Notes under the pieces: model-generated | The model's input: only the letters and a program-made list of their open reading frames with translations | What the model was told of the DNA's origin: nothing | The model's database searches: none | Made by a program: the position numbers and the translations under genes | Source: Blastochloris viridis | Lineage (GTDB): Bacteria; Pseudomonadota; Alphaproteobacteria; Rhizobiales; Xanthobacteraceae | DNA length: 64,000 bases | Reading direction: 5' to 3' | NCBI RefSeq assembly: GCF_001402875.1 | Contig: NZ_CP012946.1 | Location: 2,582,001-2,646,000 of the forward strand | Shown: in pieces, positions 38,856 to 49,729 of the stretch | How positions within the stretch are numbered: position 1 is the stretch's first letter | How the letters are laid out: each line of letters begins with the position of its first letter

Positions 38856-39629
38856 ATGACCGTGAAGCGTGCGACCGTGAATTGTGCGACCATGACGTTT
38901 GCGATTGCTGCGCTCGTGTTCGCCGCTGCCACACCAGCCGGCGCCATCGTCGGCGGCGCGCCGGCCGCCCCCGCGCTGAAGGCCCATCTGATCGAGGTGG
39001 TGTCGCCCAACGGCGCGTGCTCAGGAACCGTGGTCGGCCGCAACCTGGTGCTGACCGCCGGGCATTGCGTCGACCGGCCGGGCAGCTACGCCGTGCTGGT
39101 GCGCGGCGCGAACGGCCCAAGCGTGGTGGAGATCGACGGCGTCGCCATCCACCCCGCCTGGACCCGCGCGCACGACCAGCAGAAAAAACCCTCGCCCGAC
39201 GTGGCGCTGGTGCGCACGCGCAGCCCCCTGCCCGCGCAGTTCCGGCCGATTGCGCTGTCGGCGGCGACCGGCCTGCCGGCGGTCGGCGCGCAATTCACGC
39301 TGGCCGGGTTCGGCCTGTCGGAAGAAGGCAGCCCGCGCAGCGGCGGCGTGCTGCGCACCGTGACGTTGAAGGTGCTGCTGCGCTACGTCACCGCCCAGGC
39401 GAAGCTGGTGCCGCTCGGCGGCGCGCCGGCTGGCGCGTGCGAGCTCGATTCCGGCGGCGCCGCATTGACGAGCGAGAATGGCGCATCGGTGCTGGCCGGC
39501 GTGATCGCCTGGAGCGCGGGCGACGGCACGAAGAATTGCGGTGCCGCCAGCGCCATCACCGCGGTGGGCGCCATCGCCGACTGGCTGCCGCTCGCGGCGC
39601 AAAAGCTCGGCGCCCGGCTGGGCGAGTGA
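38856..39629 (+). CDS. Secreted trypsin-like serine protease inside the GTA cluster
   Basis: A 257-residue S1A protease. Catalytic residues are His70 (LTAGHC), Asp115 (PDVALV) and Ser198 (ACELDSGGAA). The signal peptide appears to end at Ala30, leaving IVGG at the mature N-terminus, the activated trypsin N-terminus with no propeptide. Disulfide cysteines occur near the His and Ser. It is transcribed opposite to the GTA genes, between gp6 and gp5, with a divergent 59-base promoter gap and no strong ribosome binding site. An internal ATG at 38892 is an alternative start. Confidence 0.87.
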   Translation: MTVKRATVNCATMTFAIAALVFAAATPAGAIVGGAPAAPALKAHLIEVVSPNGACSGTVVGRNLVLTAGHCVDRPGSYAVLVRGANGPSVVEIDGVAIHPAWTRAHDQQKKPSPDVALVRTRSPLPAQFRPIALSAATGLPAVGAQFTLAGFGLSEEGSPRSGGVLRTVTLKVLLRYVTAQAKLVPLGGAPAGACELDSGGAALTSENGASVLAGVIAWSAGDGTKNCGAASAITAVGAIADWLPLAAQKLGARLGE

Positions 39630-42118: not shown

Positions 42119-43369
42119 ATGAACGCGGACGCGGCGCGACAGGCCGAAGTTGCTCGAACGGCCCCGTTCCAAGCATCGCCAAATGATGTGGCGGCGATCG
42201 CGAACCGCATCGCGTGTTCCGATCATCCGTTCGCGGTCATCATGAAGCCGACCGATAAATGCAACCTGCGGTGCGGCTACTGCTACGTTCCGCACCGCGG
42301 CCACCACCTTCGCATGACACGCGACGTGCTGAAGGCGTCGATGTCGATGCTCAGCGCCATGCTCGGCTGGCGCCGCCAGCTCCATTTCATCTGGCATGGC
42401 GGCGAGCCGCTGGCGATGCCGCTCAGCTTCTTCGAGGAGGCCGTCGCGCTGCAGCGCGAGCTGTTCCCCGGCTGGTTCATCGACAATTGCGTGCAGACCA
42501 ACGGCACCCTGTTGACGCCGGAGCACGTCGCGTTCTTCGCCGACCGCGGTTTCTCCGTGAGCCTCAGCATCGACGGGCCGGCGGACCTGCACGACAAAAA
42601 CCGTACGTTCGCCAACGGCCGCGGCTCCTACCGCCGCGTGCTCGAGGCGGTGTCGCTGCTGCGCGAACGAAATCAGGCGGTCGGCGCCGTGGTGGTGATG
42701 ACGCCGGACATCGCCGCGAACATCGAGCGGGTCTATCGCACCATGCGCGAGCTGCGCATCAACTTCCGCATCAACCCGGTCATCCAGATCGCGGGCGATC
42801 GCAGCGCCTCGCCGCGCTACGCCGTCACGCCGGACGACTACGCCCAGGCGATGATCGCGCTGTTCGATTTGTGGTTCGAGGACGATGTGCCTCTCCACGT
42901 CGACCCGTTCAACCTCATCGTCGGCAACATGATTTCCGACACGGTGTGGGGCTGCGACTATCACGGCGGCTGCCTGCGCGACGTCATCTGCGTCGACCCC
43001 GACGGCGGGGTCTATCCGTGCGGCCAACTGGCCGGCCGCCCCGAGTTCCGGCTTGGAAACGTGCTGAAGGACGACGCACCGGCGATCTTCGCCGCGCCGA
43101 TGTACGCCCGGCTGCTCGACCGGCGCCACCTCGGGATCGCAGCGTGCGAGGGCTGCCACCACCGGCGGATCTGCAACGGCGGCTGTCCGGTCGCGGCCTA
43201 TATGCGCGGCGACATGCTCGGCCGGGACTATTTCTGCGAGGGCCGGCACCGGCTGTTCGACCACATCCGGCGCCGGATCGAGGAGGATGTGGCGCGACAG
43301 GCGGCAACCCCGCTGCCGGCACCACGAACAGGAGGACAGTGCGATGGCAGACCAAGACCGGCCGGATGA
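42119..43369 (+). CDS. Radical SAM/SPASM peptide-modifying enzyme inside the GTA cluster
   Basis: A 416-residue radical SAM enzyme. The AdoMet 4Fe-4S site is Cys48-Cys52-Cys55 (CNLRCGYCY), preceded by VIMKPTDK and followed by WHGGEPL, as in anSME-like and peptide-maturase enzymes. The C-terminal SPASM region has candidate auxiliary-cluster ligands Cys285, Cys291, Cys301, Cys343, Cys346, Cys352, Cys356 and Cys373. GGAG lies eight bases before the ATG. It overlaps the downstream 101-aa gene by 26 bases, so the pair is coupled. SPASM enzymes often modify ribosomal peptides; the substrate here is presumably the partner. It lies opposite to the GTA genes, between gp3 and gp3.5. Confidence 0.9.
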   Translation: MNADAARQAEVARTAPFQASPNDVAAIANRIACSDHPFAVIMKPTDKCNLRCGYCYVPHRGHHLRMTRDVLKASMSMLSAMLGWRRQLHFIWHGGEPLAMPLSFFEEAVALQRELFPGWFIDNCVQTNGTLLTPEHVAFFADRGFSVSLSIDGPADLHDKNRTFANGRGSYRRVLEAVSLLRERNQAVGAVVVMTPDIAANIERVYRTMRELRINFRINPVIQIAGDRSASPRYAVTPDDYAQAMIALFDLWFEDDVPLHVDPFNLIVGNMISDTVWGCDYHGGCLRDVICVDPDGGVYPCGQLAGRPEFRLGNVLKDDAPAIFAAPMYARLLDRRHLGIAACEGCHHRRICNGGCPVAAYMRGDMLGRDYFCEGRHRLFDHIRRRIEEDVARQAATPLPAPRTGGQCDGRPRPAG

Positions 43370-43649
43370 AGGCATCGACATCCGCGAGATCGAAGACCTG
43401 GTGAAGGCGTTCAAGGAGCACGTGTCGCTCGATGGGCTGCGGGCGAACCTGCGGACGGTGGCGGAGAGCCGTCGCCTGCAGGGCGCGACGCTGAACCTCA
43501 CGCTCAAGCCGGACCACGCCAAGCCGGACTACTACAACATCTACCGTTACGCCTTCTTCGGCTTCCAGGCGCCGGAAGACGTCGACGTGCTGCCGGCAAC
43601 CGAGCGCAGCGGCCTCACCGAGCGCTTCGAGGCGGTGCGCAAGAAATAG
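43344..43649 (+). CDS. Small partner protein of the radical SAM enzyme, possible substrate
   Basis: A 101-residue cysteine-free soluble protein of no family I recognise. Residues 10-45 look like an amphipathic helical leader (DIREIEDLVKAFKEH). Residues 63-74 form an aromatic cluster, YYNIYRYAFFGF, flanked by PDHAKPD and QAPEDVD. It starts inside the radical SAM gene with GGAGG eight bases upstream, so it is translationally coupled. Aromatic cores of this kind are targets of cyclophane-forming radical SAM enzymes, but whether this is the substrate, a chaperone or unrelated is unproven. Confidence 0.78.
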   Translation: MADQDRPDEGIDIREIEDLVKAFKEHVSLDGLRANLRTVAESRRLQGATLNLTLKPDHAKPDYYNIYRYAFFGFQAPEDVDVLPATERSGLTERFEAVRKK

Positions 43650-47693: not shown

Positions 47694-48194
47694 TCAGCCC
47701 GCCACGCGTGCCAGCGCAGCCGGCCGGCGCCGCGCCCGGCGCGGCAGCCGTAGCGGCCAATCGACGACGAAGCCCTCCATCTGCTCGGCCGGGACATCGG
47801 TCTCAGTGGCGGCGACCTTGGCGCGCACGCTGACGCCGGCGGCATGGACGCTGTCGGGATCGCCGGACACCAGCGGGTGCCACCAATAAAGGTCGCGCCC
47901 CTCGGCCAGCAGGCGATAGCCGCAGGTTGGCGGCAGCCAACCCAGCGTGCGCACCTCCACCGGCGTCAGGCGGACGCATTCGGGCACCTGTTCGGACCGG
48001 GCGCCATAGTCGATGCACCGGCACGCCTCGTCGTCGAGCAGCCGGCAGCCAACCTCGGTGTAGACGATGCGGCCGGTGTCCTCACACTCGAGCTTGGCCA
48101 GGCAGCAGCGCGCGCAGCCGTCGCATACGCTTTCCCACTCCGCCAGCGTCATCTGCTCCAGCGTCTTGGTCTTCCAGAATGGTCGTTCGGTCAT
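47694..48194 (-). CDS. ycgN: YcgN-family cysteine-cluster protein (UPF0260)
   Basis: A 166-residue protein with the start [28 protein letters not shown] seen in YcgN, and eight or so conserved Cys (CDGCARCC ... [11 protein letters not shown] ... [10 protein letters not shown]) of the zinc/iron-chelating domain. Function unknown in the family. The start at 48194 (MTERPFWKT) follows the family; a frame extension to 48209 adds five residues. It is divergent from gafY across 318 bases and sits between gafY and the GTA leader. Confidence 0.9.
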
Positions 48195-48401
48195 GTCAGC
48201 GGCACTCATGCCGCCACTCTATATACGAAATCTGCGACCGAACGCGCCGCTCGGCGCCAATTGCTTGGACGCCGAGGCCGCCTGATGAGCCTCCGCGGCA
48301 GCGGCTCGCCCGCAACTGCGGCGCCCCCCGCTGGGACGCCACTCAGATTATTTCTGGGCATAAATTCTTTGGGCGCACACGCCTAGCGCGTGAATTTCGT
48401 A

Positions 48402-48424
48402 TTCCCTAGCCGTATGTTAGGGAA
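48402..48424. promoter_or_regulatory. Operator-like inverted repeat upstream of gafY
   Basis: TTCCCTA (48402-48408) and TAGGGAA (48418-48424) are a perfect 7-bp inverted repeat with a 9-base spacer. It overlaps by three bases the LexA-box match. Protein unknown. Confidence 0.5.
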
Positions 48425-48436
48425 CGTATAGAGAAC
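48422..48436. promoter_or_regulatory. Perfect alphaproteobacterial LexA (SOS) box match upstream of gafY
   Basis: GAAC at 48422-48425, seven bases, GAAC at 48433-48436; on the other strand this reads GTTC-N7-GTTC, the consensus LexA site in alphaproteobacteria. It is 76 bases before the gafY start and adjoins a possible -35 TTGACC (48439-48444), where LexA would block RNA polymerase. Confidence 0.6.
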
Positions 48437-48512
48437 ATTGACCGGGATTCGCTACGCTCAGCCAGTTCGGCCAACTTATGCTAGGCTCTTAGTCCTACAA
48501 GAGGAGGCCGCG

Positions 48513-48929
48513 ATGCAGATTGCCCTGACCACCCCGGACCCCGGCCGCGATGCCCTCGCCGCATTCGGCCCACCCGCCGGCCCGACCTCGCCGGCCTCCG
48601 CGCGCGAGCGCCAGCTCGCCTTCCTGGTGTCGACCTGGCTCGCCGCGTCGGCCCACCGGGTGGCACCGGCCGATCTCAGCCTGATGCGACGCGGCAGCGG
48701 CGATGTGGTCGCCGCCCGCCAACTCGCGATCTATCTGGTGCACGTGGTGTTCGGGTTCGACCGCGACTGCACCGCGAAACTGTTCGGGCGCGACCGCCGC
48801 ACCGTTGCCCGCGCTTGCGCCAAGCTTGAGGACCAACGCGAATCCGCCGAGGCCGAGCGCACCTTGTGCGCCATCGAGCGCGAGGCGCTGGCGCTGGCCG
48901 AGACCTTGGGCCTGGAGCCGCGGGCATGA
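48513..48929 (+). CDS. gafY: GafY-like GTA transcription activator (DnaA C-terminal-like domain)
   Basis: A 138-residue protein with a DnaA-C-type helix-turn-helix domain (ARQLAIYLVHVVFGFDRDCTAKLFGRDRRTVARACAKLED, about residues 68-110). This is the family of GafY in Caulobacter and the N-terminal part of GafA in Rhodobacter, which turn on GTA genes. GAGGAGG precedes the ATG at 48513 by five bases. It overlaps gafZ by ATGA. A LexA-box match lies upstream. Assignment rests on domain type, operon partner and linkage to the GTA cluster; a replication initiator-like regulator is the alternative, less likely. Confidence 0.85.
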   Translation: MQIALTTPDPGRDALAAFGPPAGPTSPASARERQLAFLVSTWLAASAHRVAPADLSLMRRGSGDVVAARQLAIYLVHVVFGFDRDCTAKLFGRDRRTVARACAKLEDQRESAEAERTLCAIEREALALAETLGLEPRA

Positions 48930-49729
48930 CCGCCCGCAAGCGGGCCAAACACCCCACGCCGCTGGCAGGCGACGCGCTCCTCCTGGCGCTGGCTGACGGC
49001 GCGACCGCCGCTGCGACGCACGATGGCACCGTGGCCCTGGCGCGCCCGGACGGCCGCCATATCGCCACCACGGCGGCCGCACTCGCCGATCTTTGCGCCC
49101 GCGGCCTGATCGCGATCGGCCGGGCCGGCCGCTTCGAGCCATCGAACGACGGCAACGCCCGGCTGGCGCGCCTGACCGCCACGGCGCAGCCCTTCCTCGC
49201 CCAACACCGCACCCTGGAGCCGGCCACGGTGGCGATCGACGGCCTCGACGCCGAGGTGCTGTGCGATGCCGACGAAAGTCCACTGGCCTGGCTGGCGCGG
49301 CGCAAGGACAAGACCGGCCGGCCGCTGCTGGCGCCACACCAGTTCGCCGCCGGCGAGCGGCTCCGGGCCGACTTCACCCGCGCCCAGATGACGCCGCGCC
49401 TCACCGCCGACTGGGGCGGGGCGGCAACCCGCGGCGGCGGCAGCCGCGATCCGGCGGCGTTCGCCGATGCCGCGGTCGCCGCGAAGGAGCGGCTGACCAC
49501 CGCGCTCGACACCGCCGGGCCGGAGCTATCAGGCGTTCTGCTCGATGTATGCTGCTTTCTGAAAGGGCTCGAAGCGGTCGAGCGCGAGCGCAACTGGCCG
49601 GCACGCACCGCCAAAGTGGTGCTGGGGCTGGCGCTCGATCGCCTCGCCCGCCATTACGGCCTCGGCAGCGAGGCCCGCGGCCCGGCGCGCGGACGGCTTC
49701 GGGCGTGGAGCGCGGGGGCCGGCGAGTGA
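48926..49729 (+). CDS. gafZ: GafZ-like GTA activator/antiterminator (DUF6456)
   Basis: A 267-residue protein. The C-terminal half carries DUF6456: LARRKDKTGRPLLAPHQFAAGERLRADFTRAQMTPR, then GPELSGVLLDVCCFLKGLEAVERERNWPARTAKVVL. In Caulobacter, GafZ works with GafY at GTA promoters, resembles sigma-factor-like regions and is reported to let RNA polymerase pass terminators. The start at 48926 overlaps gafY by four bases, so the two are made together. The gene is 2 kb from gp1. Confidence 0.87.
   Translation: MTARKRAKHPTPLAGDALLLALADGATAAATHDGTVALARPDGRHIATTAAALADLCARGLIAIGRAGRFEPSNDGNARLARLTATAQPFLAQHRTLEPATVAIDGLDAEVLCDADESPLAWLARRKDKTGRPLLAPHQFAAGERLRADFTRAQMTPRLTADWGGAATRGGGSRDPAAFADAAVAAKERLTTALDTAGPELSGVLLDVCCFLKGLEAVERERNWPARTAKVVLGLALDRLARHYGLGSEARGPARGRLRAWSAGAGE

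Follow-up and report, generated by a model that had tools for sequence, protein, structure and literature searches.

A LexA-type box upstream of the GTA activator genes gafYZ of Blastochloris viridis and its recurrence before gafY in other lineages

Overview

The intergenic region in front of the GTA activator gene gafY of Blastochloris viridis contains an exact LexA-type box, GAACGTATAGAGAAC, which fits the LexA motif of SOS genes, is of the same type as the boxes of lexA and recA in that genome, and recurs before gafY in several lineages. We propose that this box is probably a LexA operator, that LexA represses gafYZ through it, and that DNA damage frees the promoter and so switches the GTA on. 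LexA control of gafYZ as a recurrent arrangement is well supported by the sequence comparisons; in B. viridis itself, where the case rests on one species, it is probable, not proven.

The gafYZ locus and the GTA cluster

The B. viridis genome is a single contig (C1) of 3.72 Mb, and the window, by which we mean the whole 64-kb stretch analyzed here, corresponds to C1:2582001-2646000. The reaction-center M protein of the genome is identical to PDB 2wjm_M, an entry from B. viridis, across all 324 residues, which makes the species assignment almost certain. The main features of the window are collected in Table 1. A GafY with a weak DnaA domain IV-like match adjoins a GafZ with a DUF6456 domain, the arrangement of a gafYZ activator operon; the second gene we take to be gafZ from its operon position and from what is known of the family. 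A Shine-Dalgarno-like sequence, AGAGGAGG, lies ahead of gafY at 48500-48507. The intergenic region is bounded on its other side by a divergent, YcgN-like CxxCxxCC gene. The gap between the two genes measures 303 bases to the first ATG of the divergent gene (48209); the 318 bases given by the initial annotation are obtained from its second ATG.

The genome contains an RcGTA-type head-tail cluster, whose terminase ORF starts 1.6 kb away on the opposite strand. Terminase, portal, head-tail adaptor, major tail protein and tail genes were matched with PHROGs, and the capsid and protease were named by eye. The gp15-like gene shows 79% identity to both congeners. Plus-strand genes occur within this minus-strand cluster at 42119-43649 and 38856-39629. 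Among them, a gene for a radical SAM protein, followed by a small ORF, lies between the portal and the protease/capsid, while an ORF judged trypsin-like by eye separates the capsid from the connectors. Two more gp15-like tail genes, with multi-piece matches, were found far from the window (C1:1293899-1298406 and C1:1336104-1340602); perhaps they belong to other GTA-like or prophage clusters.

Table 1. Features of the gafYZ locus and GTA cluster (positions within the window)
Feature	Position	Strand	Basis or remark
GTA head-tail cluster: terminase, portal, protease and capsid region, connectors, tail genes	26608-46874	-	PHROGs
Divergent CxxCxxCC gene, far end of intergenic region	47694-48209	-	Pfam PF03692, 1.1e-08
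Inverted repeat TTCCCTA-N9-TAGGGAA	48402-48424		Arms 48402-48408 and 48418-48424; overlaps the LexA box by 3 bases
LexA box GAACGTATAGAGAAC	48422-48436	+	Exact match; 21.0 bits; second among the 74 exact sites of the genome on a PWM built without its genus
TAGGCTCTTAGTCCTA, local TAGG-N6-8-TCCTA copy	48482-48497	+	Pattern common among gafY promoters
gafY, GTA activator, DnaA domain IV-like	48513-48929	+	Pfam Bac_DnaA_C, 22.6 bits (weak, under the Pfam cut-off of 31.5); GafY alignment, 7.0e-33 (alignment includes B. viridis GafY itself)
gafZ, 4-base overlap with gafY	48926-49729	+	Pfam DUF6456, 7.4e-51

The LexA box and its motif

The perfect GAAC-N7-GAAC that had been claimed 76 bases before the gafY ATG was confirmed; on the opposite strand it reads GTTCTCTATACGTTC. 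It is the sole exact match in the window (shuffled-window mean 1.61), and one such site per 64 kb is, taken alone, unremarkable. At the rate of exact sites in the genome (74) the chance of finding one in 303 bp is 0.6%, and at the rate in a reversed control (38) it is 0.3%. The earlier estimate of about one in a hundred regions was thus somewhat too generous to chance.

The alphaproteobacterial LexA consensus is the direct repeat GTTC-N7-GTTC, or GAAC-N7-GAAC on the other strand (PMC3091678), and the gafY box has this form. One B. viridis protein matches the LexA DNA-binding domain, and the recA and lexA genes carry the same type of box upstream (GAACAAGAAGAGAAC and GAACACAAAAGGAAC). Among 60 upstream regions from relatives and from B. 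viridis itself, exact boxes were located before 22 of 30 recA and 28 of 30 lexA genes. The 35 distinct 17-mers from these boxes gave the position weight matrix (PWM) used for the bit scores, on which the gafY box, at 21.0 bits, stands 18th of 36 when set among them. A second PWM of 15 bases was built from 24 distinct recA and lexA boxes of relatives, leaving out the own genus. Here lexA's own box scored above the gafY box, which came second of the 74 genomic sites; the B. viridis recA box ranks just 21st, and the matrix is therefore not tuned to its genus. Both core and flanks of the gafY box agree with the motif of the relatives' SOS genes.

Recurrence among gafY upstream regions

Loci with gafY were pooled from relatives, named genomes (best 80 of 480 candidates), the family (198 genomes) and the order of Parvibaculum sedimenti (40 genomes). 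A single-sequence query gave no GafY matches in contigs, whereas an alignment query succeeded. The family search also returned many weaker matches in frames of about 500 residues, which look like DnaA itself, and three of its GafY-bearing genomes (G122, G160 and G211) were left out of the locus set. A GafY match was present in 241 of 242 loci; removal of 40 duplicates of the same 90 bases left 201, and setting aside three with too short an upstream sequence left 198 regions.

The direct GAAC/GTTC repeat at spacing 7 was discovered in 27 of these 198 regions, compared with 0-4 regions for each other spacing from 0 to 24. When the spacing was held at 7, the next best 4-mer with two G or C reached 9 regions. 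Shuffled regions gave a mean of 1.65 and a maximum of 7. Since the shuffles preserve composition only and related genomes are not independent, we place weight on the spacing control and on the separateness of the lineages rather than on a P value. The other 171 promoters are without the N7 box, which counts against our explanation. A class-wide draw of 289 genomes yielded 22 matches at E <= 1e-24, of which 6 were duplicates; among the 16 new regions are two with the box, which belong to a single family outside the order of B. viridis. Upstream of gafY in genome G282 (locus L361) there is a near-exact LexA-like sequence, GGAAAATTTATCGAACA (14.9 bits), with one half-site altered.

The carriers belong to separate lineages: Parvibaculum and its kin, genus g23, Rhodoplanes-like genomes, the family outside the order, and single genomes. 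The 27 comprise B. viridis, an alphaproteobacterial MAG (L005), a MAG titled Rhodoplanes piscinae (L089), loci L059 and L101, seven genomes of g23 (G024, G142, G159, G175, G217, G225 and G234), and fifteen of Parvibaculum type, including P. sedimenti (L096) and P. indicum (L131). Genus g23 is of the same family as B. viridis, and carriers make up 7 of its 11 genomes, no exact box being located at gafY in G103, G124, G190 and G204. In the order of P. sedimenti the box is present in 15 of the 30 loci returned; 6 further gafY-bearing genomes returned no locus. Across the seven g23 carriers the half-sites are invariant, and majority identity is 78% in the core, 51% in the 40 bases upstream and 76% in the 30 downstream. 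This comparison of genomes picked for their box shows retention of half-sites amid diverging sequence, and not a rate.

A GafY tree of 199 short domains requires 12 changes of the box label, and its starred branches force at least 5. It was built on 105 columns, a number that the program flagged as small, together with a warning about long branches meeting, the Blastochloris rows included; the tree therefore makes several gains or losses likely rather than giving an exact number.

A gp15-like GTA tail protein was matched in 25 of 29 box-carrying genomes, own included, three of the matches (G239, G278 and G332) being partial; P. sedimenti is among the genomes with a match. The four with no match at E <= 1e-20 are two drafts, G013 (370 contigs) and G188 (250 contigs); the P. 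indicum genome G253; and G399, which is one contig, is listed as 100% complete and has a stop inside its GafY match. In the last two of these the box would control gafYZ without the usual GTA. We count the four against our explanation, yet they leave our odds for the LexA reading unchanged, those odds resting on the remaining carriers. In 17 box-carrying genomes, counting that of B. viridis, a single contig holds both gafY and the gp15-like gene, at most some 50 kb from each other; in the congener G001 they are about 660 kb apart. The box showed no association with linkage of gafY to the GTA: at least two GTA genes occur within about 20 kb per side in 2 of 9 carriers and 7 of 31 box-free genomes, a span too short for longer distances and, in G234, covering one side only.

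Comparison with the congeners

Neither congener (G001 and G002) has the box at its gafY promoter, the best PWM scores being -6.1 and -7.5. G001 does possess one exact match, which is GC-rich, lies 215 bp before the presumed gafY start and falls outside the windows of the later scans; it scores 0.5 bits versus 21.0 for the B. viridis box. Between B. viridis and the congeners some 20 bp adjoining gafY align and nothing further, and the upstream neighbors of gafY differ: the CxxCxxCC gene in B. viridis, a transposase-like ORF (by eye) in G001 and another ORF in G002. From this it follows that the B. viridis box came with, or arose in, sequence unseen in the congeners. Conservation in close relatives is accordingly divided, the promoter box being missing from both congeners and present in other members of the family.

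These observations bear on a rival reading in which the boxes of other lineages are real and the B. viridis match is a functionless chance LexA-like sequence. The absence of the box from both congeners, the fact that they do not share the upstream region, and the reversed control, by which perhaps half of the 74 genomic sites may be due to chance, are all in its favor. Even so, we consider this reading rather improbable: a chance of 0.3-0.6% per region, second rank among those 74 sites by motif and a strong enrichment of LexA boxes at gafY across genomes all speak against it. Position, motif score and recurrence before gafY elsewhere together place the box beyond chance. The site was originally picked by a reader scanning for motifs, and we count this against the LexA reading.

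Other elements of the gafY promoter

The overlap between the box and a 7-bp inverted repeat, noted earlier, was borne out and amounts to three bases. The pattern TTCCCTA-N5-13-TAGGGAA occurs once in the B. viridis genome and is absent from those of G001 and G002. The repeat is a candidate operator of another regulator. It might thus be supposed that the site belongs to a different repressor, for example a RogA-like XRE/S24 protein acting on TTCCCTA-N9-TAGGGAA, and that the LexA-like box is incidental. RogA does repress gafYZ in Caulobacter, the B. viridis genome has, in addition to lexA, a gene for another protein of the S24 family, and the palindrome that overlaps the box has just this single genomic occurrence. 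The congeners, however, also encode a further S24 protein and lack the palindrome; the RogA motif GGAA-N4-TTCC was found in 10 of the 198 regions, that of B. viridis (L001) not being among them; and the enrichment is specific to the LexA spacing of N7. We regard this alternative as very unlikely. The second S24-family protein (L337, C1:3446802-3447158) shows, on inspection by eye, an HTH-like N-terminus; it also contains a GDSM motif, an AG pair and, farther along, lysines, and it is possible that it is a RogA relative, perhaps one keeping the self-cleavage residues.

Closer to the gene is a copy of the pattern TAGG-N6-8-TCCTA, which is present in 51 of the 198 regions (shuffled mean 0.4) and lies near the gafY start in the promoters inspected. 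In B. viridis it starts at -31, with the LexA box 60 bases upstream of it. A -10-like TATGCT (48477-48482) abuts the start of TAGGCTCTTAGTCCTA and may serve as the -10 element; a scan of 48150-48560 for sigma-70 consensus promoters located none. The sequence TTATCCCC, which resembles a DnaA box, was found in 97 of the 198 regions, compared with a mean of 1.0 after shuffling; 19 regions contain its complement. Because of this likeness, and because GafY is DnaA domain IV-like, TTATCCCC may be a site of GafY autoregulation. None of the three Blastochloris gafY promoters contains it. A helix RRTVR is present in the two Blastochloris GafYs readable by the helix pattern, and RTTxH in 87 of the 137 proteins read.

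Placement of the box relative to these elements varies by lineage, a point that counts against our explanation. In all 15 Parvibaculum-type carriers it follows TATCCCC by 47-51 bases, and in g23 it always precedes the TAGG element by 38 bases, with TTG directly behind it. An equal spacing between box and TAGG element was considered and rejected, the distances being 47 in the Rhodoplanes-like promoters, 38 in g23 and 60 in B. viridis.

Proposed mechanism

From the sequence evidence we infer binding of LexA, repression rather than activation, induction by damage and release of the GTA. In undamaged cells, LexA on the box would hold gafYZ down. Upon DNA damage, RecA-stimulated self-cleavage of LexA would leave the gafYZ promoter free, GafY and GafZ would be made, and the GTA cluster would be switched on. 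The g23 box reaches the stretch where a -35 element is expected, a position suggesting that LexA obstructs RNA polymerase, and the TTGTTC at its end is spaced so that it could serve as a -35 element. The box of B. viridis precedes the conserved TAGG...CCTA element by 60 bp, and interference by LexA with an upstream activator, GafY or IHF, therefore seems more likely.

Further repressors may act besides LexA. In one version, narrower than our explanation and compatible with it, LexA binds but gates only the level of expression; damage by itself would not switch the GTA on, because a second control (a RogA-like repressor, CtrA, IHF or quorum sensing) is also needed. In Caulobacter, RogA and CdxB repress gafYZ in layers (PMC13236601), in Rhodobacter capsulatus LexA is said to act via cckA (PMC6363796, PMC9638019), and B. 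viridis has its second S24 protein; these points make the version conceivable, and we think it less likely than not. The B. viridis genome offers no direct evidence for such a control, and the g23 box, lying over the expected -35 region, would permit full repression by LexA.

The suggestion of SOS control made at the outset gains from the motif score in the own genome and from the spacing-specific recurrence in other lineages, and is weakened by the absence of the box in the congeners. More broadly, we think it quite likely that lineages of Alphaproteobacteria have acquired or lost LexA control of gafYZ several times over, and that GTAs are SOS-inducible in Parvibaculum and its kin, g23, the Rhodoplanes-like genomes, the family outside the order and B. 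viridis. The LexA box at gafYZ may be a remnant of an ancestral prophage induction switch, or a reinvention of it.

LexA acting at the activator would make DNA damage a simple trigger of the GTA. According to a 2026 Caulobacter paper, the stimuli of GTA production remain elusive (PMC13236601). Such a trigger agrees with the report that GTAs provide templates from which DNA is repaired (PMC9632790). If true, GTA release would be a public response to DNA damage, handing out repair templates when they are needed. The genera to which the idea would apply include Parvibaculum and Blastochloris.

Comparison with known systems

No report of LexA at gafYZ or gafA was found in the accessible text of the open-licence literature searched, and the links between SOS and GTAs described there are indirect or concern other promoters. 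The earlier remark that no established example of direct LexA control of gafYZ is known agrees with that literature.

In Caulobacter crescentus, gafYZ are repressed by RogA and CdxB (PMC9632790, PMC13236601, PMC11150451) and activated by GafY and IHF (PMC11150451). The likeness to our proposal is a repressor at the gafYZ promoter that keeps the GTA off, and RogA is LexA-like in its domain plan. The region bound by RogA contains GGAA-N4-TTCC repeats, and the protein reportedly lacks key catalytic residues, whereas the motif in B. viridis belongs to LexA, the SOS repressor proper, and would tie the switch to DNA damage. Deletion of driD, which belongs to an SOS-independent damage pathway, did not abolish the benefit to GTA producers (PMC9632790), a result that counts against our explanation.

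The RcGTA of R. capsulatus is a second case in which the SOS repressor influences GTA production (Kuchinski 2016, via PMC6363796, PMC9638019 and PMC6473078). There LexA is reported to be required for production and to act through cckA (PMC6363796, PMC9638019), which is the opposite sense and likewise counts against us. In that system the route is said to run via cckA/CtrA, whereas in B. viridis the box stands before the activator of the GTA, and removing LexA would be expected to increase production. For Dinoroseobacter shibae a LexA site was predicted in silico at the promoter of the GTA cluster; the sites named at gafA are those of CtrA (PMC6473078). It resembles the present case as a predicted LexA site in a GTA-related promoter, but it is at the structural cluster and in one species, whereas that of B. 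viridis is at the activator operon.

Finally, some phages are induced via the host LexA (PMC9437464), so that, as proposed here, the lytic control of a phage-derived element is placed under the host repressor. The B. viridis element differs from these phages in being a domesticated GTA, and the operon at which its box stands is that of the activator. Host LexA control over prophage-like elements is already known; what would be added here is such control over the activator of a domesticated GTA.
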